Shown in pieces: positions 10,917 through 37,268 of a stretch of DNA of 37,268 bases. Under the pieces are notes generated by a model that was not told where the DNA came from, ran no database searches, and saw only the letters and a program-made list of their open reading frames with translations. Location: contig JAUVLC010000013.1 in NCBI GenBank assembly GCA_030595925.1, forward strand, positions 1 to 37,268, read 5' to 3'. Numbering within the stretch: the first letter of the stretch is position 1; every line of letters starts with the position of its first letter. The position numbers and the translations under genes are program-made. Source of the stretch: Clostridia bacterium (GTDB taxonomy: Bacteria; CBDUZB01; JAGLHV01).

Positions 10917-10944
10917 CTGTAGTTTTTATCTATGGACTGTCTTT
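10908..10944 (-). repeat. Long inverted repeat, right arm
   Basis: AACTCATAACTGTAGT (10908-10923) and CTATGGACTGTCTTT (10930-10944) are the reverse complement of the left arm at 10331-10374. Confidence 0.85.
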
Positions 10945-10987
10945 TGTCTTGAATTATTTTTATATTTTTATATGGAGACTATTAAAA

Positions 10988-13150: not shown

Positions 13151-13201
13151 AAAAATAAAGGGTTGTGTGAAAATTCTGTTTTTAACCAGGGATGAAGAGA
13201 A

Positions 13202-13951
13202 ATGGTTTTTATAATTTTACCTGCCTATAATGAAGGTGCTGTTCTTTCCTTATTGTTTCAATCATTTATTAAAGTAATGGGAGGGAAAGAATATCTTATT
13301 ATTTTGGTAGATGACGGAAGCACGGATAATACTTTCCAATTAGCTGTAAAATACTCCGGGAAAATTCCTTTGGAAATTATTCAACATCAAAATACTGAAG
13401 GGTTGGGGAAGGCAATAAAGACCGGAATATTTAAGATTATTAATGGTATTAAGGATGGTGATATTGTTATTACCCTCGATGCTGATAATACTCATAATCC
13501 GGAATTAATCTTGTCGATGGAAAAAGATTTAAAAAAGGGTAGTGATATAGTAATTGCTTCGCGTTATCAAATAGGGGGAAGAGAAATCGGTTTATCTCTT
13601 CATCGATGTTTTTTGAGTAAAATAGCAAATATACTGTTTAAGATATTATTTCCATTAAAGGGAGTAAGAGATTATACCTGTGGATATCGTGCTTATAAGG
13701 GGTGGGTGCTTAAGGAAGGATATCGACTGTGGGGGGAGGATCTCATAGAAGAAAATGGTTTTACCTGTATGGCAGAACTCTTGATTAAATTGTCGCAAAT
13801 TTCTGTTAATATTAGTGAAGTTCCGCTTGTTTTGAGATATGATTTGAAAAGAAGTAAAAGTAAAATGAAAATAATAAAAACTATTTTACAATATTTTTTA
13901 TTTATTCTAAAAACTAAATTAGGGCTTACTGAAAAATGCAAATCCGCCTAA
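13202..13951 (+). CDS. Family 2 glycosyltransferase, DPM1-like
   Basis: This 249-residue cytosolic GT-A enzyme resembles dolichol-phosphate mannose synthase and the undecaprenyl-phosphate glycosyltransferases. It has PAYNEG at the N-terminus, DDGSTDNT (near 37-44) and the metal-binding DADNTHNP (near 91-98), followed by the SRYQIGG segment. No C-terminal membrane helices are seen. It probably makes a polyprenyl-phosphate-linked sugar used as donor by the membrane (GT-C-like) enzymes downstream. The last codons (CKSA-stop) lie inside a TCCGCC palindrome, so the C-terminus may have been reshaped by repeat insertion. Confidence 0.85.
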   Translation: MVFIILPAYNEGAVLSLLFQSFIKVMGGKEYLIILVDDGSTDNTFQLAVKYSGKIPLEIIQHQNTEGLGKAIKTGIFKIINGIKDGDIVITLDADNTHNPELILSMEKDLKKGSDIVIASRYQIGGREIGLSLHRCFLSKIANILFKILFPLKGVRDYTCGYRAYKGWVLKEGYRLWGEDLIEENGFTCMAELLIKLSQISVNISEVPLVLRYDLKRSKSKMKIIKTILQYFLFILKTKLGLTEKCKSA

Positions 13952-14029
13952 GGCGGAGCACTCTTTGTACAAAATCACCAAAAACTTTGTACTTTTGATT
14001 GCATATAAATTTTTCAGTAAGCTTTAATT
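13916..14029 (+). repeat. Large stem spanning the GT2 stop codon
   Basis: Bases 13917-13937 pair with 14009-14029 over 21 positions, two of them G.U in RNA (GCTTACTGAAAAAT against ATTTTTCAGTAAGC is the core). The 71-base loop holds the TCCGCC palindrome and the stop codon. No T run follows, so it is not a standard terminator, but it would fold the 3' end of the mRNA. Confidence 0.7.
13943..13957. repeat. TCCGCCTAAGGCGGA palindrome, copy 2
   Basis: A 15-base GC-rich palindrome whose central TAA (13949-13951) is the stop codon of the glycosyltransferase gene. It differs at one central base from 10604-10618. Confidence 0.85.
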
Positions 14030-14257
14030 ATGCAGATATTGAAAAAATTACACCGATTTTGTCATCTAAGTTTTAATCTGTGTAATCTGGTTTCTAATCT
14101 GTGAAATCAGGGACTGCTGGGTTTTTCAGCAGACCCTAAATTAAAACTTTATAAAAAAAATTCTTAAAAACACTTAATTTTCTTATTAGTAACTAATAAA
14201 ATAATAGTCAATGAGTTAGAATTTGTTTGTTTTATACGGCGAAAGAGAAGAAAACTT
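14030..14257. other. Spacer with repeated AATCTGTG words and a hairpin
   Basis: The spacer repeats AATCTGTG-type words (14077-14108) and a strong hairpin, AGGGACTGCTG (14109-14119) with CAGCAGACCCT (14127-14137), with one internal mismatch. No T run follows. The remainder is AT-rich with no gene or clear promoter seen. Confidence 0.6.
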
Positions 14258-16447: not shown

Positions 16448-16490
16448 TTTTTATGGCTTGATTAGATATTTTTATATGGAGATAGAGTAA

Positions 16491-18821
16491 ATGATGATGA
16501 AAAAAGAAGGTTGTTTTATAGTTGCTTTAAATGTTCTAATTATCTTTTTTTCGGCAAAAATTCTTTTTATGAAGCGAATTTTTTTCCTGGGTGACACAAT
16601 GTATTCCTTTCAATCCTGGTGGTCATTTAATACGGAAGGAATAAGAAAAGGAATAATTTATCTATGGAATCCATACTTATGCAATGGACAGGCATTTATT
16701 GCTAATATTCAAACTGCTTTGTTTTATCCGGCTACACTTTTATTTTATATATTCGGTTTTACTTTAGGTTGTAAAATGTTTGTTTTTTTTCACTTATTTT
16801 TTACCGGACTATTTATGTATCTTTTAGCCAGGAAATTAAAAATTACTAAAGAAAGTTCTTTCATTTGTGCTTTTATTTTTAGTTTTGGGGGATATTTTTT
16901 AGTACAAATTGAGTTTTTTAGTGCAATGGGTTCTTATATATGGTTTCCGTTGATATTTTTGTTTTTAAAAGAAAGCTTAGAAAACAAACAAAAAATATTT
17001 TTTATCGTTGTTTCAGGAATTACTTTGAGTTTTCAGTTTTTTAGCGGATACACGCAAATATTACTTTATACGGTAGTTGCTTTATTTCTATATGTTCTAT
17101 TAAAATCGGTTCAAAAAACAAGTGCCGGAAAAAAATATTTTTTAATTTTTTTTATAATCGGAATAATAGGCCTTACTATTTCTTTGGTTCATTTTCTCCC
17201 TGTTTTAGAAGGAGTATTTTATTCTTCCAGGGCAAAAGTATCTTTTAGTGATGCCGTTAATTGGACTTTACCTCCTTTATTTTTAATTAAATTTATATTA
17301 CCTTCTTTATTTGGTAAAACTTGTGCTGTATTTTTTTCCGAAAATCCTTTTGGTAATGTTTTTTGGGCAATTAGACAATATTGGCTTACTACTTTCTATA
17401 TAGGAGTGTTGCCTTTATTTTTTTCTTTAACAGCATTGATTTTTAAGCACGAAAATAAATTATGGTCATATCTTTTTTCGTTATTAATAGTTTCTTTAAT
17501 TTTTGCGTCAGGTAAAAATCCTTTCTTTTATCTTTTTTTCTTCTGTAATCCTTTAGCCCGTATTTTTACTCATTATGCTTCCTTTATATATTTATCGGTT
17601 TTTTCTTTAATTTTATTATGCGGAATAGGAATGGATTATTTTCTGTATGAGAAAAACAGATTATTTTTTTTATTTATTAAAATATGTTTTATAACTGCAT
17701 TGTGTTTTGTTTTTGTTTTTATAATTTTTGGGATGAAAGAGAAGTTTTTGTTATTTACCCCTGTTCAACAGGAATGGTTATTGAGAAATGTTTTTGTTTT
17801 TTTTATTTTTCTAACGAGCAGTTTGATTTTGTTCTTTTTGAAGGGGAAAATTTCTATTCCTTTGCTTAAAGTGTTGGTTATTACTTTTATTATAGTGGAT
17901 TTATTTATGTTTGGAATAAACATAAATCCCACTATCGGAGATTGGTTTTTCAAGGAAAAGCCTGCTAATTTAAAATTTATAAGAGAAAGAAACGATTTTT
18001 CGCGTATTTTTTTTACTCCCCAGGCACAAACGAATCGGATTATGGTGGGGGATGTTTATCAAAAAGCATATAAAAGTCTACGGGATGCCCTGCAGGCAAA
18101 TATAGGATTACCATATCATGTTTTTTATGTTTATGGTTATGATTTTATTCCTATTGCCTACTATAAAAGTCTTTTATATAAAATGAAGGGAAAAAGCCCC
18201 ATTGTTGCTGATACTAAAATGATGGATGTTTTAGGAGGACGGTATGTTTTTTCTTATCAGGATTTAAATTCTCAAAAATTAAAGTTAGTGAGGAATGATA
18301 AGGTAAAAATTTACGAAAATGAAGATTGTTTCCCCCGGGCTTTTCTTGTATCGGAAGCAAAGATTTTACATCGAAAAAAAATATTAGATTATCTGATGAG
18401 TCCTGAATTTAAACCTCGCCGGGAAGTAGTGCTGGCAAAAAATGCTATTACACAAAAAGGGGAAATAACGGATAATAAATCTGAAAGAAAATACAATCCG
18501 GAATGTCTGAATGGTGCGGATAATGTTAGGATTACGGACTATCAATCCAATAAAGTAAAAATTCAGGCTAATTTAAGACAAAACAGCTGGTTGATTTTAA
18601 CTGATACTTATTATCCCGGCTGGCAGGTTTATATAAACGGAAAAAGAGATAAAATCTATCGGGCAAATTATGCTTTACGGGCAGTATATTTAAACAAAGG
18701 AACAAATAAAATAAACTTTATTTATAAACCGGTAACTTTTAAAATAGGACTTTATTTTACTTTATTTATATTGTTTGTTCTGGCAGGTTGGGGAACTAAA
18801 TTTTGTTTTAAGCTTTATTAG
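16491..18821 (+). CDS. YfhO-like multispanning membrane protein, paralogue 2
   Basis: This 776-residue tandem paralogue of the preceding gene has the same layout: an N-terminal GDTMYSFQSWW...IYLWNPYLCNGQAF loop, many helices, and the C-terminal WLILTDTYYPGWQVYINGK motif with a Y/F-rich beta end and final helix. GGAG (16478-16481) precedes the first of three consecutive ATG codons, and the exact start among these is uncertain. The gap to the previous gene is 43 bases, so they are probably co-transcribed. The pair could add two different sugars or act as a heteromer. Confidence 0.8.
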   Translation: MMMKKEGCFIVALNVLIIFFSAKILFMKRIFFLGDTMYSFQSWWSFNTEGIRKGIIYLWNPYLCNGQAFIANIQTALFYPATLLFYIFGFTLGCKMFVFFHLFFTGLFMYLLARKLKITKESSFICAFIFSFGGYFLVQIEFFSAMGSYIWFPLIFLFLKESLENKQKIFFIVVSGITLSFQFFSGYTQILLYTVVALFLYVLLKSVQKTSAGKKYFLIFFIIGIIGLTISLVHFLPVLEGVFYSSRAKVSFSDAVNWTLPPLFLIKFILPSLFGKTCAVFFSENPFGNVFWAIRQYWLTTFYIGVLPLFFSLTALIFKHENKLWSYLFSLLIVSLIFASGKNPFFYLFFFCNPLARIFTHYASFIYLSVFSLILLCGIGMDYFLYEKNRLFFLFIKICFITALCFVFVFIIFGMKEKFLLFTPVQQEWLLRNVFVFFIFLTSSLILFFLKGKISIPLLKVLVITFIIVDLFMFGININPTIGDWFFKEKPANLKFIRERNDFSRIFFTPQAQTNRIMVGDVYQKAYKSLRDALQANIGLPYHVFYVYGYDFIPIAYYKSLLYKMKGKSPIVADTKMMDVLGGRYVFSYQDLNSQKLKLVRNDKVKIYENEDCFPRAFLVSEAKILHRKKILDYLMSPEFKPRREVVLAKNAITQKGEITDNKSERKYNPECLNGADNVRITDYQSNKVKIQANLRQNSWLILTDTYYPGWQVYINGKRDKIYRANYALRAVYLNKGTNKINFIYKPVTFKIGLYFTLFILFVLAGWGTKFCFKLY

Positions 18822-20774: not shown

Positions 20775-21752
20775 ATGAATTGGAAAGATAAGATTATTTT
20801 GCTTACCGGAGGAACGGGTTCTTTTGGTCAGAAATTTACCGAGATAATGCTTAAAAAATACAATCCGAAACTTATAAGAATTTTTAGCCGTGATGAACTT
20901 AAACAGTATGAAATGGAGCGGAAATTTAAGTTTGATAAACGTTTAAGGTTTTTAATCGGGAATATAAGGGATAAAAATAGATTGTCCAGGGCGATGGATA
21001 ATGTGGATATAGTGGTGCATACTGCTGCTCTCAAACAGGTCCCTGTTTGTGAGTATAATCCTTTTGAAGCAATCCAGACGAATGTTATTGGGGCACAAAA
21101 TGTTATAAAGGCTGCAATAGATTGTAATGTTAGTAAAGTGATAGCATTAAGTACAGATAAAGCAGTGAATCCCATTAATTTATATGGGGCGACAAAACTG
21201 TCTATGGAAAAGATATTTGTTGCTGCTAATTCTTATGTGGGGAAAAATCAAAGAACCCAGGTAAGTTGTGTACGTTATGGTAATGTTTTAGGTAGCAGAG
21301 GTAGTGTATTGCCTTTATTTAGAAAACAGAAGTTAAAAGGTGTAATTACTATAACGGATGAAAGAATGACTCGATTTTGGATGACCCTTGAGCAAGGAGT
21401 AAAATTTGTTATCAAGTCTATTGGAATGATGCAAAAAGGGGAAATTTTTATTCCTAAAATGCCGAGTATGAAAATTGTTGATCTGGCTAAATTAATTGCG
21501 CCTAAATGCAAAATAAATATCATGGGTATAAGACCCGGAGAAAAGATACATGAGTGTCTTTTAACGGAATATGAAGCTATACATTCAGTTGAATATGAGA
21601 ATTTTTTTATAATTAAACCGGAATGGAAATTCTGGAAATTTAAGTTACCCGCTGGTGGAAAAAAATTACCGGAAGATTTTAGATATACAAGTGATAAAAA
21701 TAATTCATGGCTTAGTTGTGAAGAATTAAAAGAAATGGTACAAGATTTATGA
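20775..21752 (+). CDS. pseB: UDP-GlcNAc 4,6-dehydratase (inverting) PseB
   Basis: PseB performs the first step of pseudaminic acid synthesis, UDP-GlcNAc to UDP-2-acetamido-2,6-dideoxy-beta-L-arabino-hexos-4-ulose. The 325-residue extended SDR has the Rossmann motif TGGTGSFG (11-18), AALKQVPVCEYNP (84-96), the catalytic STDKAVNP with D128 and K129, and Y137-x3-K141, matching the catalytic pattern of Helicobacter FlaA1. GGAAGGAG precedes the ATG. It overlaps pseC by four bases (ATGA). Confidence 0.94.
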   Translation: MNWKDKIILLTGGTGSFGQKFTEIMLKKYNPKLIRIFSRDELKQYEMERKFKFDKRLRFLIGNIRDKNRLSRAMDNVDIVVHTAALKQVPVCEYNPFEAIQTNVIGAQNVIKAAIDCNVSKVIALSTDKAVNPINLYGATKLSMEKIFVAANSYVGKNQRTQVSCVRYGNVLGSRGSVLPLFRKQKLKGVITITDERMTRFWMTLEQGVKFVIKSIGMMQKGEIFIPKMPSMKIVDLAKLIAPKCKINIMGIRPGEKIHECLLTEYEAIHSVEYENFFIIKPEWKFWKFKLPAGGKKLPEDFRYTSDKNNSWLSCEELKEMVQDL

Positions 21753-22927
21753 AAAAGAAAAGTTTCATTCCTTATGGAAGACAATGGATAGATAAATATG
21801 ATATTGAGGCTGTAGTGAAAGTTTTGGAATCAGATTGGATTACACAGGGTCCAAAAGTTGAAGAATTTGAGAAAAGTTTAAGCCAGTATTGTGGTTCTAA
21901 GTTTGCAGTTGTTGTTTCAAGCGGTACAGCAGCATTACATATAGCTTGTTTAGCGGCTGGAATTAGTAAGGATGATGAAGTTATTACTTCACCGATAACA
22001 TTTCTTGCCAGTGCAAATTGTATTTTGTATTGTAGTGGAAAACCGGTTTTTGCTGATGTTCAAAAAGATACAGTTAATATTGACCCGGGAGAAATAGTAA
22101 AAAAAATTACTAAAAGGACAAAAGCGATTATTCCTGTTCATTTTGCAGGACATCCTGCTGATATGGGAAAAATCTATAAAATTGCTAATAAGTATAATTT
22201 AATGATAATTGAGGATGCCTGTCATGCATTAGGTGCCCGGTATAAATCAAATGATAAATGGATAAAAGTAGGAAAGTGTAGCCATTCCGATATGACCGTT
22301 TTTAGTTTTCATCCTGTAAAATCAATTACTGTGGGTGAAGGGGGAGCGATTTTAACAAATAGAAGGGATTTGTATGAAAAACTTTTGATGTTTCGTAACC
22401 ATGGAGTGACAAAAGAGAGTTCAAAGTTTAAATTTAAAAATTCAAATTTAAATGGAGATTGGTATTACGAGATGCAGGAATTGGGTTTTAATTACCGCAT
22501 TACTGATTTCCAGTGTGCTTTAGGAATAAGTCAGTTAAAAAAATTGGATAGATTTATCGAAAAAAGAAGAGAAATAGTCAAAATTTATAGTGAAGAACTT
22601 TCAGAAATTAAAGAAATTGAGTTGCCTGTTGAAAGAAATTATGTAAAGTCCTCTTGGCATCTTTACTACATTAGATTAAAAAATTTTTTAAAAAGAAAAA
22701 TTGTCTTTGAAAAATTGCAGAAATTAGGCATTGGTACGCAGGTACATTATATTCCCATTCATTTACAGCCATATTACAGAAAAAATTTAGGATATAAAAA
22801 AGGAAATTATCCAAATGCAGAGAGATATTATAATGCAACAATAACTATACCATTATTTTTTGGTTTGAAGAAAAACAAAATTAAAAACATTATCCAAAAA
22901 ATAAAAAAGGTTTTTAGCTATGTTTAA
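21749..22927 (+). CDS. pseC: UDP-4-amino-4,6-dideoxy-N-acetyl-beta-L-altrosamine transaminase PseC
   Basis: This 392-residue PLP aminotransferase acts on the PseB product. SSGTAAL (58-64) binds the phosphate, IIEDACHA (153-160) holds the cofactor Asp, and FHPVKSITVGEGG carries the Schiff-base K191, the wording typical of PseC rather than generic DegT proteins. It starts within pseB (ATGA) and its 3' end overlaps the next gene by 8 bases. Confidence 0.93.
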   Translation: MKKKSFIPYGRQWIDKYDIEAVVKVLESDWITQGPKVEEFEKSLSQYCGSKFAVVVSSGTAALHIACLAAGISKDDEVITSPITFLASANCILYCSGKPVFADVQKDTVNIDPGEIVKKITKRTKAIIPVHFAGHPADMGKIYKIANKYNLMIIEDACHALGARYKSNDKWIKVGKCSHSDMTVFSFHPVKSITVGEGGAILTNRRDLYEKLLMFRNHGVTKESSKFKFKNSNLNGDWYYEMQELGFNYRITDFQCALGISQLKKLDRFIEKRREIVKIYSEELSEIKEIELPVERNYVKSSWHLYYIRLKNFLKRKIVFEKLQKLGIGTQVHYIPIHLQPYYRKNLGYKKGNYPNAERYYNATITIPLFFGLKKNKIKNIIQKIKKVFSYV

Positions 22928-23924
22928 AGAAAAAGATATAAGACCAAAAGCAACTGAAAAACTAGTAGCAAAGTTAAGATTGAAGGATATAAAAACAAAT
23001 TTTTTAGATAATAGAGGGAATATTATAAATAATTATTTTTTAGAAGTCGGATGTCCTTCATGCGGAAGAAAAAACAATCCTGAAGAATTTATGAAGGAAA
23101 AATTCAGTTTTAAACGTTGTAAATGTTGTAATACACTGTATGTTTCTCCAAGACCTACGGTTTATAGATTACTTAAATATTATAAGTATTCAAAATCAAT
23201 TAAATTTTTCACAAAGGAGATTTTGGAGAAAACAATCAATGTAAGAAAAGAAAAAATTTTTAAACCCAGAGCGGAAAAGGTTATTTTTTATACTAAGAAA
23301 TTAAATACTGAGAAAGAACAACTTATAGAAATTGGAGGAGGGAATGGAATATTTCTTGAAGTTATGAAGGGGATGAGAGATGGGTTTAAAAACTTACTAA
23401 ATATCGAACCTTCAAAAGAAGGGGCAAGGTTGACGAAAAACAGAGGGTTTAATGTTATAAATGATTTTGTTGAAAACGTAGAAAAATTAAGAGCGGATTG
23501 CATTTGTGCATTTGAGCTTATTGAACACATATTTGATCCTTTAAGTTTTTGCAGTAAGGTAAACAATTTATTAAAGGAAAATGGAATTTTTATTATGACA
23601 ACCCCTAATATTGAAGGTTTTGATTTAATGCTTTTGGGTAAAGATTCCGATAATATTGCTGCCCCAAATCACCTAAATTATTTTAATCCTAAATCAATAA
23701 AGATGTTGCTAAAAAAAACTGGGTTTAAAGTGATTAATGTAGAAACACCCGGAATATTGGATGTGGATATTATTAAAAACAAGTTTAAAAGAGGGTATAA
23801 TATTAAAGATAGATTTATTTCTTTTCTACTAACCAAAGATCAGAGATTTTTGGATAATTTTCAGTGCTTTTTACAACAAAATAATTTAAGTAGTAATATG
23901 TGGATTGTAGGTAAAAAGATATGA
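22920..23924 (+). CDS. Class I SAM-dependent methyltransferase with N-terminal zinc ribbon
   Basis: A 334-residue protein. A zinc ribbon (C45-P-S-C48 and C67-K-C-C70) is followed by a Rossmann methyltransferase fold with motif I LIEIGGGNGIFLEV (near 136-149), an acidic FELIEHIFDP (near 197-206) and ENGIFIMTTPNIEG. Methyltransferases with this zinc-ribbon layout occur in sugar and nonulosonate clusters. It could O- or N-methylate the sugar or its nucleotide precursor, but the substrate is not readable. It overlaps its neighbours on both sides (8 and 4 bases). Confidence 0.8.
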   Translation: MFKEKDIRPKATEKLVAKLRLKDIKTNFLDNRGNIINNYFLEVGCPSCGRKNNPEEFMKEKFSFKRCKCCNTLYVSPRPTVYRLLKYYKYSKSIKFFTKEILEKTINVRKEKIFKPRAEKVIFYTKKLNTEKEQLIEIGGGNGIFLEVMKGMRDGFKNLLNIEPSKEGARLTKNRGFNVINDFVENVEKLRADCICAFELIEHIFDPLSFCSKVNNLLKENGIFIMTTPNIEGFDLMLLGKDSDNIAAPNHLNYFNPKSIKMLLKKTGFKVINVETPGILDVDIIKNKFKRGYNIKDRFISFLLTKDQRFLDNFQCFLQQNNLSSNMWIVGKKI

Positions 23925-24898
23925 AATTTTTAATAATTGGCTGTGGCTCAATTGGTAAACGACATATTAATAATTTAATAAAGCTTAAAGTGGGTGAAGT
24001 ATTTGTCTTTGACATAAATAAAGAAAGACTTAATGAAATAATCGTCATAGGTTCAAAAATTAGAGTTTTTAATAATTTGCAGAATGTTTGGAATGAAAGA
24101 CCGGATGTTGTGTTTATCTGTGTTCCTACCTCCTTACATATAAAATATGCAATAGAAGCAGTAAAAAAAGGGTGTCATATTTTTATAGAGAAACCCTTGT
24201 CACATAATCTTATAAATATAAATAAGCTGATAAAAATTGCAAAGAGAAAGAAACGGATTACAATGGTTGGTTGTAATATGAGGTTTTATTGGGCGATTAA
24301 GAAAATTCATGATTTACTCGAAAAGGATGTAATTGGCAGGGTAATTTCTGCAAGAATAGAGACTGGACAATATTTGCCAGACTGGCGTCCATGGGAAAAT
24401 TATTAAGAAATGTATTCGGCAAAAAGAAATTTGGGTGGTGGTGTCGTTTTGGATACTATTCATGAGATTGATTATGCAATGTGGTTTTTTGGAGAGGTTG
24501 CAAAAATTTCTTCAATATATGGTAAATTAAGTAGTCTTGAAATAAATACAGAGGATATAGCCGAGGTGTTGCTTAAATTCAAAAAAGGTGTAATTGCTAA
24601 TATTCATATGGATTATATACAAAGATGTTATTCTCGAAATTGTAAAATCATTGGAGAAGAGGGAACTATATTTTGGGATTTTAATGAAAATTGCATAAAG
24701 TTATATTCTGCAAGAATGAAAAAATGGAAAACTATTTATAAACCTAAAAATTACCAGATGAATCAAATGTATATTGATGAAATAAAATATTTTTTGGATT
24801 GTGTAAAAAAGAAACAAAACACATTTAATGATGTCTTCGATAGTCTTAAAACTTTAAAAGTAGCATTGGCTGTAAAGGGAAAGAGAATATATGGCTAA
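23921..24898 (+). pseudogene. Gfo/Idh/MocA oxidoreductase split by an in-frame TAA
   Basis: The frame from ATG 23921 encodes the NAD(P)-binding half (IIGCGSIGKRH, FIEKPLSHN) and reaches TGQYLPDWRPWENY, then TAA at 24404-24406. The same frame continues with EMYSAKRNLGGGVVLDTIHE, the normal continuation of this family, to 24898. Together 325 codons make a full-length dehydrogenase. The downstream half has an ATG at 24410, three bases past the stop, so reinitiation could give two fragments, but no good ribosome binding site is seen. It may have been an NAD-dependent sugar oxidoreductase of the nonulosonate pathway. A consensus error is possible. Confidence 0.85.
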
Positions 24899-26951
24899 AA
24901 AAATAGTTGCTATAATTCAAGCAAGGATGGGTTCTACTAGATTGCCAGGAAAGATATTTATGGATATTATGGGAAAACCGCTTTTTTGGCATTTTGTGGA
25001 ACGAATTAAAAGAGCAAAAAATGTTGACCGGATGATAATTGCTACTACCAATAAAAAAGAAGACGATGGTATTTGTGAATTTGCTATAAAAAATAATATT
25101 CCTTTTTATAGAGGGAAAGAAAAAAATGTTTTAGATAGATTCTATCAAACTGCAATAAAATACAAAGTCAAAAATATCCTTAGAGTTACCTCTGATTGTC
25201 CTTTAATTTCGCCTGAAATTGTTGATAAAATTATTTCTGAATATTTAAAAGGTGGTTATGATTATGTAACCAACACACTTTTATATACCTATCCTGATGG
25301 TTGTTCTGTGGAAGTGTTTTCATTCAAGACGATGGAAAAAGCCTGGAAAGAATGTAAAGACCTTATAGATAGAGAACATGTTACACCATATATTAAAAAT
25401 TCGGGTAAGTTTAAGATTAAAAATGTTGAAAATGAATTCCCCATCGATCCAACAGAATACAAATGGTCGGTAGATCGGAAAGAAGACTTAAAATTTGTAA
25501 GAGAAGTTTATAAACATTTATATAAAAATGAAAAAATTTTTTCATACAAAGAAATAATGAATTTATTGAAAAGGCATCCGGATCTTAAACAGATAAATTC
25601 AAGAGCAGTTATGAATGAAGGGTATTATAGGAGTTTTTTAAAATTTTCCATGGTTAAGCCTAAAAAAATAAGCATTAAAAATTCTTTAAAATTGAAAAAA
25701 AAAGCAAAAAATTTAATTCCGGGATGTAATCAAACATTTAGTAAAGGTCTTTCACAATTTATATCGGGAGTTTCTCCTTTGTTATTAGAAAAAGGAAAAG
25801 GAAGTCATATCTGGGATGTTGATGGAAAAGAATATATTGATTTTGCAATGGCTTTAGGTCCGATTATTTTGGGATATAACTACCCGGTTGTTACTGATAT
25901 AGTAAAGAAAATTTTAGAAAAAGGTACAATATTTACTTTTCCTCACAGATTAGAGATTGAACTTGCTGAATTAATGTGTCATATAATTCCTTGTGCCGAA
26001 ATGGTCCGGTTTGGTAAAAACGGTTCAGATGCAACCTCTGGAGCAGTGAGACTTGCCCGTGCATATACCGAAAGAAATAAAATTGCTTGCTGTGGCTATC
26101 ACGGCTGGCAAGACTGGTATATTGGTACGACGACCAGAAATAAGGGGGTTCCTGAGGCGGTTAGAAAATTTACTTTTAGTTTTGAATATAATAAAATAAA
26201 AAGTTTGGAAAAAATATTTAATAATAATCCGGGACAGATTGCTTGTGTGATTATGGAACCGGCAGGATTTATAGCGCCTAAGGACAATTTTTTAGAGAGA
26301 GTGAAAGAATTAACTCATAGAAATGGAGCATTATTAATTTTTGATGAAATTCTGACTGGATTTCGTTTTGCTTTGGGTGGGGCACAGGAATATTTCAACG
26401 TAATACCAGATCTTGCCTGTTTTGGAAAAGTAATGGGAAATGGCTTTCCGATTTCTGCAATTGTAGGCAAAAAAAAATTTATGAAATTATTTGAAGAGGT
26501 GTTTTATTCTTTTACCTTTGGTAGAGAGATTATATCTATTGCTGCAAGCATTGCTACTATTAAAGAATTAAAAGAAAAAAAGGTAATAGCTTATTTATGG
26601 GAACAAGGGCGGAAGCTTAAGGACGGCTATAATGTGCTTACTAAAGAATTGGATTTGTCCGGTATTACCAAATGTATAGGGTTTCCTTCCAGGACAATTA
26701 TTACTTTCAAAAATAAAAAAGGAAAAGAAGATTTAGTTCTTAAAAGCCTTTTTCAACAGGAATGTATTAGTCGGGGGATTTTATTTGCCGGGAATCATAA
26801 TATTTGTCTTGGCCATTCAAAAAAAGACATTGAGTATACTTTAAGGGTTTATAGTACGGTTTTACAAATCATAAAAGATGCAATTAAAAAAAATAAAGTC
26901 GGTAAAATGTTGAAAGGAAAACCGATTGAAGCGGTGTTTAGAAAAGCTTAG
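24891..26951 (+). CDS. Fusion: SpsF-type cytidylyltransferase + class III (HemL-like) aminotransferase
   Basis: This is a 686-residue two-domain protein. Residues 1 to about 245 are an SpsF/PseF-like nucleotidyltransferase with the CTP-binding IQARMGSTRLPGK (9-21), TSDCPLI and a late WSVDRKEDL. It would make the CMP-activated nonulosonate, and no separate NeuA/PseF gene is seen. Residues about 265-686 match glutamate-1-semialdehyde-type aminotransferases: GSDATSGAVRLARA, the DEILTGFRF aspartate and the PLP lysine K513 in CFGKVMGNGFP. Which keto substrate is aminated is unknown. The frame is uninterrupted through the linker. The start overlaps the oxidoreductase by 8 bases. Confidence 0.88.
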   Translation: MAKKIVAIIQARMGSTRLPGKIFMDIMGKPLFWHFVERIKRAKNVDRMIIATTNKKEDDGICEFAIKNNIPFYRGKEKNVLDRFYQTAIKYKVKNILRVTSDCPLISPEIVDKIISEYLKGGYDYVTNTLLYTYPDGCSVEVFSFKTMEKAWKECKDLIDREHVTPYIKNSGKFKIKNVENEFPIDPTEYKWSVDRKEDLKFVREVYKHLYKNEKIFSYKEIMNLLKRHPDLKQINSRAVMNEGYYRSFLKFSMVKPKKISIKNSLKLKKKAKNLIPGCNQTFSKGLSQFISGVSPLLLEKGKGSHIWDVDGKEYIDFAMALGPIILGYNYPVVTDIVKKILEKGTIFTFPHRLEIELAELMCHIIPCAEMVRFGKNGSDATSGAVRLARAYTERNKIACCGYHGWQDWYIGTTTRNKGVPEAVRKFTFSFEYNKIKSLEKIFNNNPGQIACVIMEPAGFIAPKDNFLERVKELTHRNGALLIFDEILTGFRFALGGAQEYFNVIPDLACFGKVMGNGFPISAIVGKKKFMKLFEEVFYSFTFGREIISIAASIATIKELKEKKVIAYLWEQGRKLKDGYNVLTKELDLSGITKCIGFPSRTIITFKNKKGKEDLVLKSLFQQECISRGILFAGNHNICLGHSKKDIEYTLRVYSTVLQIIKDAIKKNKVGKMLKGKPIEAVFRKA

Positions 26952-27004
26952 AAATACCTGTTCGGAAGTTTAAAAATCAGCTTAAATAGTGGATGAGATG
27001 CAGA

Positions 27005-28009
27005 ATGAAAGTATTAATAGTTACGGAAGGCGGTAAAAATATAGGCTTTGGGCATATAACAAGATGTGTTTCTTTATGTCAGGCGTTTGCTGAAAAGGGA
27101 ATAACAGCTGAATTTGTGATTAACGGTGACGATACTGTTGTAGATTTACTAAAAAATGAAGAATACTTATTATTTGATTGGATTAAAAATAAGAATAAAT
27201 TACTTGAAATAGCAAAAGGTGTGGAAATTATTATTGTTGATTCTTATCAGGCAGATATTTCATTTTATAACGATATATCTAAGCTGGTAAAAATACCTGT
27301 TTATATAGATGACACCAAGCGACTGGATTATCCAAAAGGAATAGTTATAAATGGTTCAATTTGTGCAGAAGAACTTGCTTATCCCGGGAAAGAAGGGACA
27401 GTCTATCTTTTGGGACATAAGTATATATCTTTACGAAAGGAATTTTGGAAAGTTTCAGAAAAATATATTAATAAAAATATCAGTAGTGTGCTGATAACTT
27501 TCGGCGGTGATGACAGAAGGGATATGACACCAAAGATTTTAAAAATTTTAAATGAAAAATATCCAGAATTTATAAAGAATGTTGTTATAGGTAAGGGATT
27601 TGATAATCTACAGGAAATAAAATATCTAAAAGATAGAAAAACTAATTTAATATATTATCCGGATGCTGAAACAACGAAGGAAATAATACTCGAATCCGAC
27701 ATTGCTATTTCTGCTGGTGGTCAGACACTATATGAGCTTGCAAGGGTTGGAGTACCAACGATAGGAATTTGTTTTGCTGAAAATCAAAGATTAAATTTAG
27801 AAGGGTGGCAGAAAAAAGGATTTATAAAATATATTGGCTGGTATGATGATGAAAAATTATTGAAGAAAATGATAGATGCAATTAATAAATTTATTCTTCA
27901 TAAGGAAAGAGTTAAAAGTAGCGAAATAGGAAGAAGGTATGTAGATGGAAAAGGTGTACACAGGGTAGTGGACAGGATTTATAAATATTATCAAAAGGGT
28001 AATAGATAA
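27005..28009 (+). CDS. pseG: UDP-2,4-diacetamido-2,4,6-trideoxy-beta-L-altropyranose hydrolase PseG
   Basis: PseG is a GT-B-fold hydrolase that releases UDP to give 6-deoxy-AltdiNAc for PseI. Starting at ATG 27005 the sequence has H17 in IGFGHITRC, equivalent to the catalytic His of Campylobacter PseG. ISAGGQTLYELARVGVPTI marks the nucleotide-binding region of the C-terminal half. It is about 334 residues. ATG 26993, four codons earlier, is the alternative, and neither start has a strong ribosome binding site. The next gene starts 3 bases later. Confidence 0.9.
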   Translation: MKVLIVTEGGKNIGFGHITRCVSLCQAFAEKGITAEFVINGDDTVVDLLKNEEYLLFDWIKNKNKLLEIAKGVEIIIVDSYQADISFYNDISKLVKIPVYIDDTKRLDYPKGIVINGSICAEELAYPGKEGTVYLLGHKYISLRKEFWKVSEKYINKNISSVLITFGGDDRRDMTPKILKILNEKYPEFIKNVVIGKGFDNLQEIKYLKDRKTNLIYYPDAETTKEIILESDIAISAGGQTLYELARVGVPTIGICFAENQRLNLEGWQKKGFIKYIGWYDDEKLLKKMIDAINKFILHKERVKSSEIGRRYVDGKGVHRVVDRIYKYYQKGNR

Positions 28010-30951: not shown

Positions 30952-31629
30952 ATGAGGCAAAAAATTTTGACTGTTGTTGCTCATCCCGATGATGAAGTAT
31001 TGGGTTGTGGAGGAACTATTGCCAAACTTACAAAAGAATGTGAAATTCATACTTTAATCTTGGGAGAAGGAATTACTTCTCGTTTTGAAAATAGAGAGGA
31101 TGGGCGTAAAAGTAAAGAATTTGAGAAAATAAAAATATCTATTGATAAAGTAGCAGAAATACTTGGAATTAAAAAAACTTTTGTTTTTGACTTTCCCGAT
31201 AACATGTTTGATAGTGTGGCATTATTGGAGATAGTTAAAGTTGTTGAAAAAGTAAAAAATGAAGTTAAGCCCGATATAGTATATACCCATCACAGAAATG
31301 ATTTGAATATTGATCATAGAATAACTTATGGTGCGGTTTTAACCGCATGTCGCCCGAAAAGAAAGGAAACGGTTAAAGAGATATATTCTTTTGAAATACT
31401 CTCTTCTACAGAGTGGAATTATCCAAATACATTTAGTCCAAATCTTTTTGTAGATATCAATGAGAGTATTAAAAAAAAGATTGAGGCATTGGGGTGTTAT
31501 GATACTGAGTTAAGAGATTTTCCACATCCAAGGTCAGAGGAAACGATTAAGAGTGTTGCAAAACGATGGGGAAGTGCGGTTGGATTAAATTACGCAGAGG
31601 CATTTGAATCAGTGAGAATTATAAAATGA
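30952..31629 (+). CDS. PIG-L/LmbE family de-N-acetylase
   Basis: This 225-residue zinc-dependent deacetylase has the signature VVAHPDDEVLGCGG with zinc ligands H11 and D14 and the catalytic D13, and THHRNDLNIDHR later. In nonulosonate clusters PIG-L proteins can expose an amine for re-acylation. AGGAG (30942-30946) precedes the ATG. It overlaps the next gene by four bases (ATGA). Confidence 0.88.
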   Translation: MRQKILTVVAHPDDEVLGCGGTIAKLTKECEIHTLILGEGITSRFENREDGRKSKEFEKIKISIDKVAEILGIKKTFVFDFPDNMFDSVALLEIVKVVEKVKNEVKPDIVYTHHRNDLNIDHRITYGAVLTACRPKRKETVKEIYSFEILSSTEWNYPNTFSPNLFVDINESIKKKIEALGCYDTELRDFPHPRSEETIKSVAKRWGSAVGLNYAEAFESVRIIK

Positions 31630-32129
31630 AGGATAATATTATATTAAATAAGGTAACCGATGATGATTGTAAATATCTTTGGGTGTGGAGAAATGACCCT
31701 AAGATTCGGAATTTTTTTTTTAATACCGGGGTAATACCCTGGGAAGAACATAAAAAGTGGTTTTATTCAAAGATTAAAGATACAAATACAAAAATATATA
31801 TTGTGCAGCAAGGGGAAAATAAAGTTGGCGTTATTAGATTTGAAATAGAAAAAGATTCTGTAAAAGTAAGTGTAAATCTAAATCCTGAATTTTTTGGTAA
31901 AGGTTTAGGTTCAAAAATTATAAAACTTGGGACAGAGATATTCTTGAAAGAAACAAAAACAGAAAAGCACATAATCGCCAAAATTAAAAAAGATAATATT
32001 GCTTCACAAAAAGCATTTGAGAAAGCAGGGTACCTTTTAATTGGTAAGAGGGGAAATGTGAGAATAATAGTCTTGAGTTATTATAAAAAAACCGTTTTTA
32101 GTTGTAAGAAGGACGATTATGAAACTTAG
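31626..32129 (+). CDS. pseH: GNAT acetyltransferase, PseH-like
   Basis: A 167-residue GNAT protein that fits PseH, the enzyme that N-acetylates UDP-4-amino-4,6-dideoxy-beta-L-AltNAc at N4. The N-terminus has the PseH-like LWVWRNDPKIRNFF, and the acetyl-CoA loop is FFGKGLGSKI (near 96-105). KKDNIASQKAFEKAGY is the typical end. It begins in the ATGA of the PIG-L gene and overlaps pseI by 11 bases. Position and family agree, but specificity is inferred. Confidence 0.82.
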   Translation: MKDNIILNKVTDDDCKYLWVWRNDPKIRNFFFNTGVIPWEEHKKWFYSKIKDTNTKIYIVQQGENKVGVIRFEIEKDSVKVSVNLNPEFFGKGLGSKIIKLGTEIFLKETKTEKHIIAKIKKDNIASQKAFEKAGYLLIGKRGNVRIIVLSYYKKTVFSCKKDDYET

Positions 32130-33168
32130 AATTAGTGGTAATCGGTTTATCGGAGACAATTGTCCTGTTTTTATTATAGCAGAAATTTCTGCAAATCACG
32201 GTCAAAATTTTAATCGGGCCGTAGCATTAATAAAAAAAGCAAAAAAATCTGGTGCGGATGCAGTGAAATTTCAAACCTATACTCCAGATATTCATACTAT
32301 AGATGTTAACAATAAATATTTTAAAATAAAACACCCCGTGTGGGGAGGTCAAACCTTATACCAGTTATATGAAAAAACATATACTCCTTGGAAGTGGTTT
32401 AAGAAATTAAAAAAAGTATCTGATGATTTAAATATTATCTTTTTTTCTACTGCTTCTGACAAAACTGCTGTTGATTTATTGGAAGAACTTAAAGTTCCAA
32501 TACATAAAATTTCCTCTTTCGAGTTAGTTGATTTATCGTTGATAGAATATGCCGCGAAAACAAAGAAGCCATTAATTTTATCAACAGGTATGGCAACTCT
32601 TTCAGAAGTAAAAGAAGCAGTTAAAACAGCAAAAAATGCCGGAGCCAGAGATATAATTTTATTAAAATGTGTAAGCAGTTATCCTGCAAAAGCGGAAGAA
32701 ATGAATTTAAGAACAATTTCTGATATGAGCAAGCGGTTTAATTTGCCTGTGGGAATTTCTGATCATACTTTAGGCATAGAGGTATCAATTGCGGCTGTTT
32801 CTTTAGGAGCAGTAGTGGTTGAAAAGCATTTTACCTTATCCAGAAAGATAAAAACTCCAGACAGTTTTTTTTCAATAGAGCCCAATGAATTTAAAAATAT
32901 GGTGGATAATATAAGAAAGGTGGAAAGAGCGTTAGGGACGGTTCATTATGGATTAACGAAAGAAGAAGAAAAAAACAGGATTTTCAGAAGGTCTTTATTT
33001 ATTGTTAAAGATATTAAAAAGGGAGAGTTTATTACTGAAGAGAATGTAAAAAGTATAAGGCCTGATGCCGGATTGCCACCCAAACACTTAAAATCGATAT
33101 TGGGAAAGAAAGTTAAGAAAAATATTTTCAAAGGAACCCCATTGAAGATGGATTTAATAGAAGTTTAA
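32119..33168 (+). CDS. pseI: Pseudaminic acid synthase PseI
   Basis: PseI condenses 6-deoxy-AltdiNAc with phosphoenolpyruvate to give pseudaminic acid. The 349-residue NeuB-family TIM barrel has IIAEISANHGQ, DAVKFQTY, STGMATL and GISDHTLG. The motif TPDSFFSIEP is the PseI form, whereas NeuB/LegI usually have GPDHxASLxP, so pseudaminic-type product is favoured. A C-terminal SAF antifreeze-like domain (about 290-349, FRRSLFIVKDIKKGEFIT...RPDAGLPP) is present. Confidence 0.93.
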   Translation: MKLRISGNRFIGDNCPVFIIAEISANHGQNFNRAVALIKKAKKSGADAVKFQTYTPDIHTIDVNNKYFKIKHPVWGGQTLYQLYEKTYTPWKWFKKLKKVSDDLNIIFFSTASDKTAVDLLEELKVPIHKISSFELVDLSLIEYAAKTKKPLILSTGMATLSEVKEAVKTAKNAGARDIILLKCVSSYPAKAEEMNLRTISDMSKRFNLPVGISDHTLGIEVSIAAVSLGAVVVEKHFTLSRKIKTPDSFFSIEPNEFKNMVDNIRKVERALGTVHYGLTKEEEKNRIFRRSLFIVKDIKKGEFITEENVKSIRPDAGLPPKHLKSILGKKVKKNIFKGTPLKMDLIEV

Positions 33169-33208: not shown

Positions 33209-33316
33209 ATGAAAAAACTATTTAAAAATATGTATTTAGAAGGCAAATATGTAGATAAAGTAGTAATGGGTATTTTGAAAGATGAATTTAAAAAGAGTTT
33301 GTCAAAATGTCTATAG
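33209..33316 (+). CDS. Small ORF upstream of and overlapping wzx
   Basis: A 35-residue frame (MKKLFKNMYLEGKYVDKVV, then a lysine-rich C-terminus) starts 6 bases after GAGG and overlaps the flippase start by 10 bases. An in-frame ATG 33194 would make it 40 residues. I do not recognise it. It may be a leader that couples translation into the flippase, or a degraded gene end. It fills most of the 138-base gap. Confidence 0.35.
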   Translation: MKKLFKNMYLEGKYVDKVVMGILKDEFKKSLSKCL

Positions 33317-34776
33317 ATAGAAAAAATATTAGAAATATTTTTATATATATGGTTCCCAAGTTTTTAAGTTATGGAATATTTTTAATTACATTGCCTATTC
33401 TGACCAGAATATTAACACCACGCGATTTTGGTATTGTAGCACTCAGTTTGATTTTTCCAACAATGGTAGTGGGCGTTTTTACGTTTGGTTTACCTGCTGC
33501 AACTCAAAGATACTATTTTGAATATCGAACAGACAAAGAAAAACTTAATTCTCTTATATTTTCTTCTCAGTTGTTTTTATATGTTTCATTAATTATTTCT
33601 ACGTTGATCATTTTCTTTTTTAAAGATTTTATATCGAAACTAACTATTGGAAATAGTAAATATGGAATGGCTATATTTATATCTTTTATCACTGCATACT
33701 TAGTCCAGATTATAAATTTTTATTTACTTTTATATCAAAATATGGAAAAAGCAACTATTCATTCAATATTTACTATTATACAAGCAATTATTATAGCAAT
33801 TACCAGTTTACTTTTGGTCTGGTATTTCAAAATGTCTTACATGGGTATGATATATGGCTCATTTATTGGGGCAATTATTGTATGCGGCTTAATGTTTTTT
33901 TATTTTAACAAAAATAAAAAATTTAGATTTAACATTAAAATATTAGCGAAAAATATAAAATATGGATTGCAAATAGTACCCAAGACCTTTACCGGTTTTA
34001 TAAATAAATTTTTTGATAAATATATGTTGAATAATATGTTATCTTTGTCAGTAGTAGGGGTATATAATATAGGTCAAAGTGTAGGAAATGCAGCTTTTGT
34101 TTTAATGGGTACTGTTTGGTCTTCCTTTCATCCTGTATGTTACAAAGAAGTTTTTGATAAAGGTAAAGACGGTGCAGTTTCTGTCGGGAAAATGTTTACG
34201 ATATTTGCCTATATTGCTTTGGTACCTGTACTTTTAATTATCCTTTTTGCTCGTGAATTGGTATATATTATTGCTCCTCCTGCTTATTACGGTTCTATTA
34301 ATGTAATAATTATTATAGTTTTAGGTATTTCCAGCCAAGTTTTTGGGAAATATTGCGGACTTCCATACGCTTATACTAAAAAAGCATATCTTATATTTTT
34401 CATTACTATTATTGGGAGTATTGTTAATGTAGTTGCTAATATTATTTTGATTCCCAGGTTTGGTTTACTGGGTGCATCAATTAGTATGGTGTGTACCTTG
34501 TTCAGTGTAAATGGAATACTTGTTTTTTTAGGGCAGAAATTGTATCGAATTAAATACCAATGGTATTTAATTTCAATTATGTATGTAAATGTTTTCGCGG
34601 CAGGTTTTTTAATGCTTTACTTGAAAATTAGTGATCATTCATGGGTTTATTTATATAGTATAAAAATTTTTTTGATAATTTGTTATGTTTTTGTAGGCAT
34701 AAAAAGTGGGGTTTTAACTAAAAATAGATTAAAATACTGTTTGGATTTGTTTAAACAACATAAAAATATTTCATAA
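33307..34776 (+). CDS. wzx: Wzx-type oligosaccharide flippase
   Basis: This 489-residue membrane protein of the MVF/polysaccharide transporter superfamily has about 12-14 helices. It opens with the family pattern MVPKFLSYGIFLITLPILTR then ILTPRDFGIVAL, and contains FLGPAxxG-like charged loops (FRFNIKILAKNIKYGLQIVP near 214-233). It would flip the undecaprenyl-linked glycan containing the nonulosonate. No strong ribosome binding site is seen, so translation is probably coupled to the small ORF upstream. A terminal-gene position next to a transferase fits an O-antigen-like pathway. Confidence 0.88.
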   Translation: MSIDRKNIRNIFIYMVPKFLSYGIFLITLPILTRILTPRDFGIVALSLIFPTMVVGVFTFGLPAATQRYYFEYRTDKEKLNSLIFSSQLFLYVSLIISTLIIFFFKDFISKLTIGNSKYGMAIFISFITAYLVQIINFYLLLYQNMEKATIHSIFTIIQAIIIAITSLLLVWYFKMSYMGMIYGSFIGAIIVCGLMFFYFNKNKKFRFNIKILAKNIKYGLQIVPKTFTGFINKFFDKYMLNNMLSLSVVGVYNIGQSVGNAAFVLMGTVWSSFHPVCYKEVFDKGKDGAVSVGKMFTIFAYIALVPVLLIILFARELVYIIAPPAYYGSINVIIIIVLGISSQVFGKYCGLPYAYTKKAYLIFFITIIGSIVNVVANIILIPRFGLLGASISMVCTLFSVNGILVFLGQKLYRIKYQWYLISIMYVNVFAAGFLMLYLKISDHSWVYLYSIKIFLIICYVFVGIKSGVLTKNRLKYCLDLFKQHKNIS

Positions 34777-34810
34777 AAAAAATTATTATGCATGGTATCG
34801 GAAGGTGAAA

Positions 34811-36883
34811 ATGAAAGGTGTAAATGTAATTTATATAGATAGACTTTCTTTTTATTCTTTGATTTCACTTATTTTATCAGGGAAGAAATATTCGCGTATT
34901 ATTTATTTTAACATTTCTTCAACCGTTAAAAAATTATTGAAAATATTTCTTTTATTTAAAGTTGTCAAAGTAATGCCGGAATTTGTAGAATTTTGTCTTG
35001 CGGATATTCTGGATGAGAAAGGCGAATCACAATTTATAAGGATAATAGAAGAGACGAAGATAATTTGCATGAAAATCGGGCAGAAAGAGTTTGTAAATAG
35101 CTTTATCATAAAGAATATGGGGAAACATTTTGATATTGATAAACTCTTGATCTATTTTGAAAAAGCGGTTTCTGTTGAGATAGAAGAACCTATTGTGTTT
35201 ATAAATATAGCTGTCTGGCATGCAAGAAATAAAATATCGGAGAAAGATACATCAATAATGTTTTTTATGGAGAATAGTTTATGGTTTAAATATTTAGCAC
35301 AATACGCCGGCAGATTTAACATAAGATTGATTAAATATCGGACAATGATAAACTCTTACTATTGGAAAAATTATCTTCTAAAATTAAGAAGAAAAATATT
35401 TCCGATGGTAAAGTCGAAATTTTTCAACTCTTTCAATAAAACAATAAAAAAGAAGATAGAACCAAAAGAAAAAATCCCTTTAATATCTACCTGGTATACG
35501 GGAAAAACTGTGACCTCCGATAGGAAGAAAAGAAGCGAATTTTTCTATCTCTTATACTCAGAGATTCCATATAATCGCATTTTAGTTCATTTTGAGAGGG
35601 ATGATATTCCGGTTACAAAAGAGATGGTGGCTGTGATGAAGAAGAATAACCTTAAATTTGTTGCCCTATCGGATAAGGTTAAAAGAACTTGTGATGTACC
35701 GGTATGGAATCCTGGCAGCAAGGCAAGGATAGAAAGAAACAAACTTGTAAAGCATCTAATTCGACACTACTTTCGAGAGATTACCAAACTGAAACTTATG
35801 CCCTTATTTTACCTCCTTAATATGTATCGTTTTATCCAAAGATATTCTTTCTGGTATGATTTTTTTAGTTCCAATGGTATAAAAATTAATATTAATCCTA
35901 ATAATTTCTCAAGATTTAATATTCCGATGAATCTTGCTCTAGAAAAAAACGGTGGAATAAGTATGTCTTATCAATGGTCGGATTTGTCATTTTCTTCTAT
36001 TGGTTTGAGTAGTTGCTCTGATGTATTGTTCTCTTTTGGACCGGCTTATAAATGGATATGGGAGAATTGCAATTCTGTCATAGATAATTTATTATACTGT
36101 GGCTATATAACGGATTATTCTTTCAGAGAGGTGAGGAGTGATTCTTTGGAATTAAGGAAACAGTTGTTAGATAAAGGTGTTAAATTTATTATTTGCTATT
36201 TTGACGAAAATTCATCGGACCATCGAATGAGTGTAATAACAAATAAAAGAACAACGGACATTTATCGGTATTTTTTAGAAAGAATAGTATCGGATGAGAC
36301 CTTGGGAATTATTTTTAAACCAAAATATGCCCGGTCGATTTATCAAATAATAGCTCCGATTAAAGATTTGATTGAGCGGGGAAAGGCAACAGGACGATGT
36401 ATATTCATGGATAAGGGAAGTTATGTAAGCGAATCATACCCTACAGTGGCTGCCCAGGCGTCAGACTTGTGCATCGGACTTTTGTTGAGCGGGACAACGG
36501 TATTAGAATCTCACCTTTCCGGGGTTCCTGCGGTATTCCTGGATTTAGAAAAATTATATTCAAACCCTGTCTATCAATGGGGAAGAAGAAAAGTCGTTTT
36601 TGACAATCTGGATGAGCTTTTTTCAATAATACAAAAATTCAGAAAAGATCCGGGAAGTGTTCCAGGTTTTGGAGATGTGTCTTCCTGGGTTAGAGACAGA
36701 GATCCTTTTAGAGATGGTAAAGCGGCAATGAGGATGGGGCAGTATATTAACTGGCTGCTTGAAAAATTCAATGAAAAAAGGACAAAAGAAGATGCTATCC
36801 AATATGCAAACCGAAGGTATACTGAAACATGGGGAAAGGAACGTATCGTTGTCCGGAAATTGGTAATGTCAAAAATTAATTGA
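34811..36883 (+). CDS. Large uncharacterised protein with GT-B-like C-terminus
   Basis: A protein of about 690 residues without membrane segments, except possibly a short N-terminal hydrophobic stretch. I do not recognise the N-terminal half (basic patch with KLRRKIFPMVKSKFF at about 195). The C-terminal third reads like the donor-binding half of GT-B glycosyltransferases: ASDLCIGLLLSGTTVLESH (near 553-571), then SGVPAVFLDLE. Being the last gene after Wzx in a Pse cluster that lacks any other visible glycosyltransferase, it is the best candidate for the nonulosonate transferase. ATG 34811 (AAGG 34802-34805) is preferred over GTG 34805, two codons earlier. Confidence 0.7.
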   Translation: MKGVNVIYIDRLSFYSLISLILSGKKYSRIIYFNISSTVKKLLKIFLLFKVVKVMPEFVEFCLADILDEKGESQFIRIIEETKIICMKIGQKEFVNSFIIKNMGKHFDIDKLLIYFEKAVSVEIEEPIVFINIAVWHARNKISEKDTSIMFFMENSLWFKYLAQYAGRFNIRLIKYRTMINSYYWKNYLLKLRRKIFPMVKSKFFNSFNKTIKKKIEPKEKIPLISTWYTGKTVTSDRKKRSEFFYLLYSEIPYNRILVHFERDDIPVTKEMVAVMKKNNLKFVALSDKVKRTCDVPVWNPGSKARIERNKLVKHLIRHYFREITKLKLMPLFYLLNMYRFIQRYSFWYDFFSSNGIKININPNNFSRFNIPMNLALEKNGGISMSYQWSDLSFSSIGLSSCSDVLFSFGPAYKWIWENCNSVIDNLLYCGYITDYSFREVRSDSLELRKQLLDKGVKFIICYFDENSSDHRMSVITNKRTTDIYRYFLERIVSDETLGIIFKPKYARSIYQIIAPIKDLIERGKATGRCIFMDKGSYVSESYPTVAAQASDLCIGLLLSGTTVLESHLSGVPAVFLDLEKLYSNPVYQWGRRKVVFDNLDELFSIIQKFRKDPGSVPGFGDVSSWVRDRDPFRDGKAAMRMGQYINWLLEKFNEKRTKEDAIQYANRRYTETWGKERIVVRKLVMSKIN

Positions 36884-36900
36884 AAAAATATGAAAAGTAA

Positions 36901-36961
36901 TTTTCCCCTTTGAAAAAGGGATAAAATTTTCCCCCTTTGAAAAAGGGGGTTAGGGGGATTT
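36901..36961 (+). repeat. 35-bp palindromic repeat, copy 3, with a partial tandem copy
   Basis: A truncated copy (TTTTCCCCTTTGAAAAAGGG, 36901-36920) is followed by a full copy at 36927-36961 identical to 10692-10726. The full copy ends 3 bases before the GTG of the DUF559 gene. Confidence 0.93.
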
Positions 36962-36964
36962 AAG

Positions 36965-37268
36965 GTGTTAAAATACAATGCGAGGTTAAAACACAATTCT
37001 CGTCAATTACGCAGGGAAATGACAGATAGTGAGAGGGCATTATGGGCACAGTTACGGGGAAAACAAATTTTGAATGTTCAATTTTATCGGCAGAAGCCCA
37101 TCGGGGGCTATATTGTAGATTTTTATGCATCTCAACCAAGGATTGTAGTAGAAGTGGATGGATCACAACACGTGGAATTGGATAAGGAGCGGAAAGATAA
37201 ACAACGAGATATATACTTGAAGAACAAGGGATTATGTGTCTTGCGTTTTAATAATCTACAAGTTTTGC
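36965..37268 (+). CDS. DUF559 endonuclease-like protein, 3' truncated by the window
   Basis: The frame from GTG 36965 stays open to the window end (101 codons). The N-terminus MLKYNARLKHNSRQLRREMT is followed by ERALWAQLRG, VQFYRQKPIGGYIVDFY (about 43-59) and IVVEVDGSQH (about 66-75). This is the DUF559 fold, related to Vsr and other PD-(D/E)XK-type nucleases, with candidate catalytic D (VDFY) and E-x-D (EVDG). The substrate is unknown. The gene directly abuts a dispersed palindromic repeat, and about 20 residues are probably missing at the 3' end. Confidence 0.88.
   Translation, partial: MLKYNARLKHNSRQLRREMTDSERALWAQLRGKQILNVQFYRQKPIGGYIVDFYASQPRIVVEVDGSQHVELDKERKDKQRDIYLKNKGLCVLRFNNLQVL

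Follow-up and report, generated by a model that had tools for sequence, protein, structure and literature searches.

A candidate nonulosonate glycosyltransferase family with a GT-B-like C-terminal domain in surface-glycan loci

Introduction

Which protein transfers pseudaminic acid (Pse) at a locus that carries genes for synthesis of the sugar and for flipping of a glycan? The question is raised by a 37,268-nucleotide stretch of DNA from a Clostridia bacterium (hereafter the window), which is a complete contig, C90, of an assembly of 193 contigs. The pseudaminic acid transferases known so far are few, and the characterised ones belong to several unrelated-looking families. The original prediction reasoned by elimination that a protein of 690 residues encoded downstream of the flippase gene is a candidate for the transferase. 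The analysis described here finds that nonulosonate loci share a genuine but so far unnamed GT-B-like family, which forms a new GT-B branch, and weighs the sugar donors that this family might use.

The gene and its pseudaminic acid cluster

The gene is an intact open reading frame that begins at ATG 34811 and ends with a stop codon at 36881-36883. The mechanically defined start of the frame is GTG 34805, two codons 5′ of the ATG. A ribosome-binding-like GGAAG lies ahead of the gene at 34800-34804, homologues start close to ATG 34811, and the antisense frame is crowded with stops. Up to E = 1 the protein had no match in Pfam, nor did its sequence match any PDB chain; searches of Pfam, PHROGs and PDB sequences with single proteins and with profiles gave nothing useful for the family, and no relatives of the protein were found in the viral contigs or plasmids that were searched. 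Its predicted solubility agrees with the family, whose members have no common hydrophobic segment.

The synthesis and flipping genes that had been noticed upstream are confirmed (Table 1), the Pse genes by NCBIfam models (PseI and PseG above cut-off, a PseH-like protein below it) and the flippase by Pfam. Further transferase-like genes of the window, upstream of the Pse cluster, code for a GT2 protein (gene at 13202), two ligases of the Wzy_C type and two YfhO proteins.

Table 1. Features of the 690-residue protein, the pseudaminic acid cluster and the contig junction. Positions are those of the window unless another sequence is named.
Feature	Coordinates	Strand	Evidence
PseB-like dehydratase (20775-21752) and PseC-like aminotransferase (21749-22927)	20775-22927	+	PF02719, PF01041
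CMP-sugar synthetase domain (PseF-like) fused to class III aminotransferase	24891-26951	+	PF02348 at 6-174, PF00202 at 296-585
PseG, UDP-sugar hydrolase	26993-28009	+	TIGR03590, 167 bits, cut-off 154
GNAT acetyltransferase, PseH-like	31626-32129	+	TIGR03585, 57.6 bits, under cut-off 93
PseI, pseudaminic acid synthase	32119-33168	+	TIGR03586, 472 bits, cut-off 340
Wzx-type flippase, immediately 5′ of the 690-residue gene	33307-34776	+	PF01943, PF13440 (Polysacc_synt)
CDS of the 690-residue GT-B-like protein	34811-36883	+	ORF, RBS-like stretch, homologue alignment
N-terminal alpha/beta region, residues 1-220 (putative boundaries)	34811-35470	+	structure model, pLDDT 55-89 for most of 1-175
Probable GT-B N-terminal half, residues 221-430, including conserved Q388-x-S390	35471-36100	+	model (387-441 low confidence), alignment, hhalign
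GT-B C-terminal nucleotide-binding half and C-terminal helices, residues 431-690	36101-36880	+	model, Foldseek, hhalign, profile matches
Asp465, invariant; C-terminal domain, end of first strand	36203-36205	+	alignment
K503-P504-K505, aligned on the R-P-H-P CMP-binding motif of TIGR04326-like relatives	36317-36325	+	alignment
Segment 553-580, CIGLLLSGTTVLESHLSGVPAVFLDLEK, conserved E566 and D578	36467-36550	+	model, alignment
Family signature D-P-F-x-D-G-x-A-x-x-R, residues 631-641; F633, D635, R641 invariant	36701-36733	+	alignment
Start of DUF559 gene, repeat at which C90 breaks; 37128-37268 identical to start of C181	36965-37268	+	sequence comparison
HMGL-like aldolase/PF01973 fusions	C181 3880-5613; L001 16151-17887; L039 15890-17662		

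Continuation of the locus beyond the contig end

The gene had been taken to close its operon. C90, however, ends 385 bases 3′ of it, within a DUF559 gene, and its last 141 bases are exactly the first 141 bases of contig C181. This overlap is unique in the genome, all other full-length copies of the DUF559 repeat having at most 94% identity. In the sister loci L001 and L002 (the latter from Brocadia), each on a single contig, the family gene is followed by the methyltransferase, GTB2, synthetase, aldolase and kinase genes that C181 carries, and in L004 and L006 by GTB3, radical SAM protein and NeuB genes. The join, drawn from the overlap and synteny rather than from a spanning read, is therefore well supported, and the locus very probably continues in C181.

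In order, C181 encodes a methyltransferase, GTB2 (a GT-B-type protein of 640 residues), a CMP-sugar synthetase, an HMGL-like aldolase/PF01973-like fusion, a PfkB kinase, a radical SAM protein, a first NeuB, another CMP-sugar synthetase, a second NeuB, a GT2 protein, a TIGR04326-like GT-B protein (GTB3) and a PseB-like protein. The apparent lack of another transferase in the cluster is thus an artefact of the contig end: C181 adds two GT-B proteins with the CMP-binding (K/R)xHP motif, a motif missing from the 690-residue protein, and elimination therefore no longer points to the latter. At this locus the 690-residue protein stands beside at least two other transferase candidates.

Joined to C181 (stretch 1-16014), the window forms one surface-glycan locus in which NeuB-type synthases and CMP-sugar synthetases each number at least three, which we read as placing several different nonulosonic acids on one glycan. 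The HMGL-like pyruvate aldolase of C181 is fused to a weak PF01973 (Maf/MptE-like) domain and lies beside a CMP-sugar synthetase; the fusion is possibly an unusual ulosonate synthase plus transferase. Other loci have a 3-dehydroquinate synthase-like gene in its place. The DUF559 genes at 36884-37268 and at the ends of C181 lie between CCCCCTTTGAAAAAGGGGG-type inverted repeats; the genome has about 13 copies of these flanked genes, and contigs break at them.

Distribution of the family and its linkage to nonulosonate synthesis

Brocadia, Ignavibacteria, Margulisbacteria and other groups have relatives of the protein, with identities of 31-54%. Six genomes of the species collection encode one (35-54% identity), and searches of four phyla enlarged the family to 22 loci, among them a distant second copy in an alphaproteobacterium. 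Its rate in these phyla is low (5/392, 9/74, 2/396 and 3/399 genomes).

A NeuB-type synthase lies at most 20 kb from the family gene in all ten close members (the window, L001, L002, L003, L004, L005 via L062, L006/L047, L037 via L054, L038 via L055, and L039), and 18 of the full set of 21 members show the same linkage, so that the homologues are not regularly found outside nonulosonate clusters, an outcome that favours the original prediction. The exceptions, L036, L045 and L046, belong to the most divergent part of the family, and two of the three are on short contigs. In one phylum the family gene and NeuB are on the same contig, 4-17 kb apart, in all eight testable genomes; a gene placed at random would lie so near NeuB 2-5% of the time in each genome, although, since the genomes are related, this does not give a strict probability. 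The flippase gene overlaps or directly adjoins the family gene in the window, L001, L002, L003, L005 and L033.

Specificity for Pse found no support: PseI was above cut-off in just three of the nine family-bearing genomes of one phylum. A Pse-specific family was rejected, as members also lie beside NeuB synthases that score under the PseI cut-off. In the tree, the PseI-linked members neither form one clade nor stand apart from other members.

Architecture and conserved residues

The full-length structure model (pLDDT 63) contains three alpha/beta units. The segment near 553-582 that had been singled out as GT-B-like is, in the model, a beta-alpha-beta unit of the C-terminal domain (strand 553-557, helix 562-569, strand 574-577). 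The N-terminal half, previously left unassigned, has no Pfam family but is not featureless, two alpha/beta units being placed before the C-terminal domain. Within residues 1-220 strands are modelled near 6-9, 29-32, 57-60, 149-154 and 171-176, with a basic linker helix at the end. Foldseek matches of the full-length model to the PDB were mostly GT-B enzymes (E 1e-5 to 1e-3, TM 0.2-0.5). A model of residues 221-690 had a lower pLDDT (60) than the full-length model and again matched GT-B enzymes, mostly over about 200-230 columns and including WaaA and TarL. Both models show strands and helices in the order expected of GT-B proteins, but at low confidence (pLDDT 60-63, TM 0.2-0.5). The alignment used for the structure models left out the loci taken from genome searches.

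G431, D465, F633, D635 and R641 are invariant among 19-20 aligned members, and Q388-x-S390, G528-R529, E566, D578 and G636 are nearly so. Of 20 aligned members from several phyla, 18-20 retain each of D465, R529, E566, D578, D635 and R641. The motif G-T-T-x-x-E566, conserved in 18 of 20 members, provides the conserved Glu expected in the C-terminal beta-alpha segment of GT-B glycosyltransferases; by likeness to GT-B enzymes such as MurG, E566 may bind ribose. Asp465 is proposed as a catalytic or donor-binding residue.

Profile comparisons place the family nearest to surface-glycan proteins. The family resembles the TIGR04326 (O_ant_LIC13510) surface carbohydrate proteins in length class, in loci and in the GT-B part, where hhalign of the family profile against the TIGR04326-like partners gave 77.8% probability over 223 columns. 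TIGR04326 proteins keep R-P-H-P and Y-Q-H-S, whereas the family has K-P-K and Y-Q-x-S, and the window protein itself does not match the TIGR04326 model. Several members match TIGR04396 (surf_polysacc), NF046086 (BFO_1060_trans) and TIGR04417 (PFTS_polysacc) weakly, within the C-terminal nucleotide-binding domain, with all scores far under cut-off; these models span 365-522 positions and leave the N-terminal region uncovered. The best members scored 12-19 bits against cut-offs of 125-250 for TIGR04326, TIGR04396 and NF046086. Direct kinship with the GTB2 family was rejected, hhalign giving only 2.3%. A GT-B-like C-terminal domain is supported by this evidence, and a full GT-B fold is likely.

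The CMP-binding motif and known transferases

The (K/R)xHP motif is conserved in CMP-sugar transferase families 29, 38, 42, 52, 80, 99 and 107 (PMC12887879). Its His is absent from all 21 aligned family members, which have K/S-P/S-K instead; the GTB2 and GTB3 partners of the same loci keep the motif. The QxxxD motif of retaining Kdo transferases is likewise absent at the matching place, where close members have F-D465-x-x-x-x-D470. D465 closes the first C-terminal strand, 40 residues before K505, and a similar distance (35-39 residues) separates Q189xxxD193 from P228 in KrkA (PMC12887879). Judged from the KrkA residue numbers, D465 may occupy a place comparable to that of the QxxxD nucleophile motif.

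KpsS1 (GT118) of Acinetobacter baumannii is a retaining Pse transferase, and GT99, GT107 and GT140 are Kdo transferases (PMC12887879). The 690-residue protein shares with them a probable GT-B class and an expected role, transfer of a ulosonate from a CMP-sugar, but has neither the QxxxD nor the HP motif and no PF05159 match (GT107/GT118, KpsC/KpsS type) up to E = 1; the sole PF05159 match in the whole genome is weak and lies on C181. The protein also has no match to PF01973, the family of the Maf flagellin nonulosonate transferases, which it resembles in role only; a weak PF01973-like domain lies instead on the C181 aldolase fusion. The NF046086 (BFO_1060) model presumably represents the GtfS family. 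GtfS of Tannerella forsythia is reported to transfer Pse5Am7Gra (PMC6120980, PMC6388019) and, as described, is like the 690-residue protein a GT-B-type protein encoded in a Pse locus with Wzx, at 445 rather than 690 residues; this likeness is one of description rather than of compared sequences.

Function of the family and alternative explanations

The 690-residue protein is best explained as a divergent GT-B-type glycosyltransferase, probably working at the inner face of the cytoplasmic membrane, where it would help to build a lipid-linked surface glycan, its presumed acceptor, that the adjacent Wzx-type flippase would then export. Among the single explanations, that of a nonulosonate transferase, perhaps one for Pse, is preferred, at about even odds. 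The numbers of CMP-sugar synthetases and GT-B proteins are 2:2 in L002 and 3:3 in the window plus C181, and because these counts are equal, one transferase per CMP-sugar, and hence the 690-residue protein for Pse, is favoured, as far as counting goes.

The missing HP motif cuts both ways, as the family may have an unusual CMP site or may use another donor and leave the nonulosonic acids to its partners. The GTB2 and GTB3 partners are equally good or better candidates for CMP-nonulosonate transfer. It is possible, if somewhat doubtful, that the protein is a GT-B glycosyltransferase of the same glycan with an ordinary NDP-sugar donor (for example a UDP-linked one) and that GTB2 and GTB3 move the nonulosonic acids: the motif lost in the family is present in these partners, GTB2 lies directly beside a CMP-sugar synthetase gene in L001, L002, L003, L004 and C181, and the best Foldseek matches are UDP-sugar enzymes, although Foldseek on a weak model is unable to separate donors. 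Against an NDP-sugar donor, L033, L042 and L044 combine the family with CMP-sugar synthesis and no HP-motif protein was detected in the stretches read, L044 being a second PseI-type locus with a distant family member and neither a GTB2 nor a GTB3 partner; moreover, a CMP-sugar synthetase gene, present near most members, overlaps the family gene in L040 and L042.

The structural matches also include UDP-GlcNAc 2-epimerases and the CDP-ribitol transferase TarL, and PseG of the same cluster is itself a GT-B-fold hydrolase, so that a GT-B-fold protein other than a glycosyltransferase (an epimerase, a hydrolase or a TarL/TagF-like phosphotransferase) might act on the nonulosonate or the glycan. This seems improbable, given that Pfam and NCBIfam returned no matches to epimerase, hydrolase or TarL/TagF families and that the closest profile relatives are surface-glycan assembly proteins. 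A scaffold, or an inactive GT-like member of a glycan assembly complex, would account for the degenerate CMP motif beside active-looking GT-B partners, but is very improbable for a protein whose putative active-site residues (D465 to R641, listed above) are so widely retained, which is unusual for a dead enzyme.

Returning to nonulosonate transfer, a more specific form of it is tentative and short of an even chance: the proteins would form a new nonulosonate transferase family whose CMP site dispenses with HP in favour of a Lys-x-Lys loop and the invariant Asp that ends the first C-terminal strand. Such a family would work alongside HP-type transferases where a locus decorates one surface glycan with several different nonulosonic acids. 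If so, the HP motif would be dispensable for CMP binding, and this widespread GT-B branch, tied to nonulosonate loci of anammox bacteria, Ignavibacteria and candidate phyla, would offer new enzymes of practical use. Should the donor be another sugar, the family would still mark a conserved step of these surface glycans.

Other features of the window

The contig starts with a tandem AGATAAC repeat (1-115). At 2708-18821, type IV pilus genes (peptidase A24, PilM, PilN, secretin) are followed by two Wzy_C/TPR ligases, the GT2 gene and two YfhO genes; next to the Pse cluster, this stretch is possibly a pilin or S-layer glycosylation set. A GFO/IDH/MocA oxidoreductase at 23921-24898 is divided into two ORFs by an in-frame TAA (24404-24406) with N- and C-terminal Pfam domains on either side, which points either to decay of the gene or to a fault in the assembly. 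The aminotransferase fused to the CMP-sugar synthetase domain at 24891-26951 is GSA aminomutase-like, and in the sister loci L002, L054 and L064 the two parts are encoded by separate, adjacent genes.
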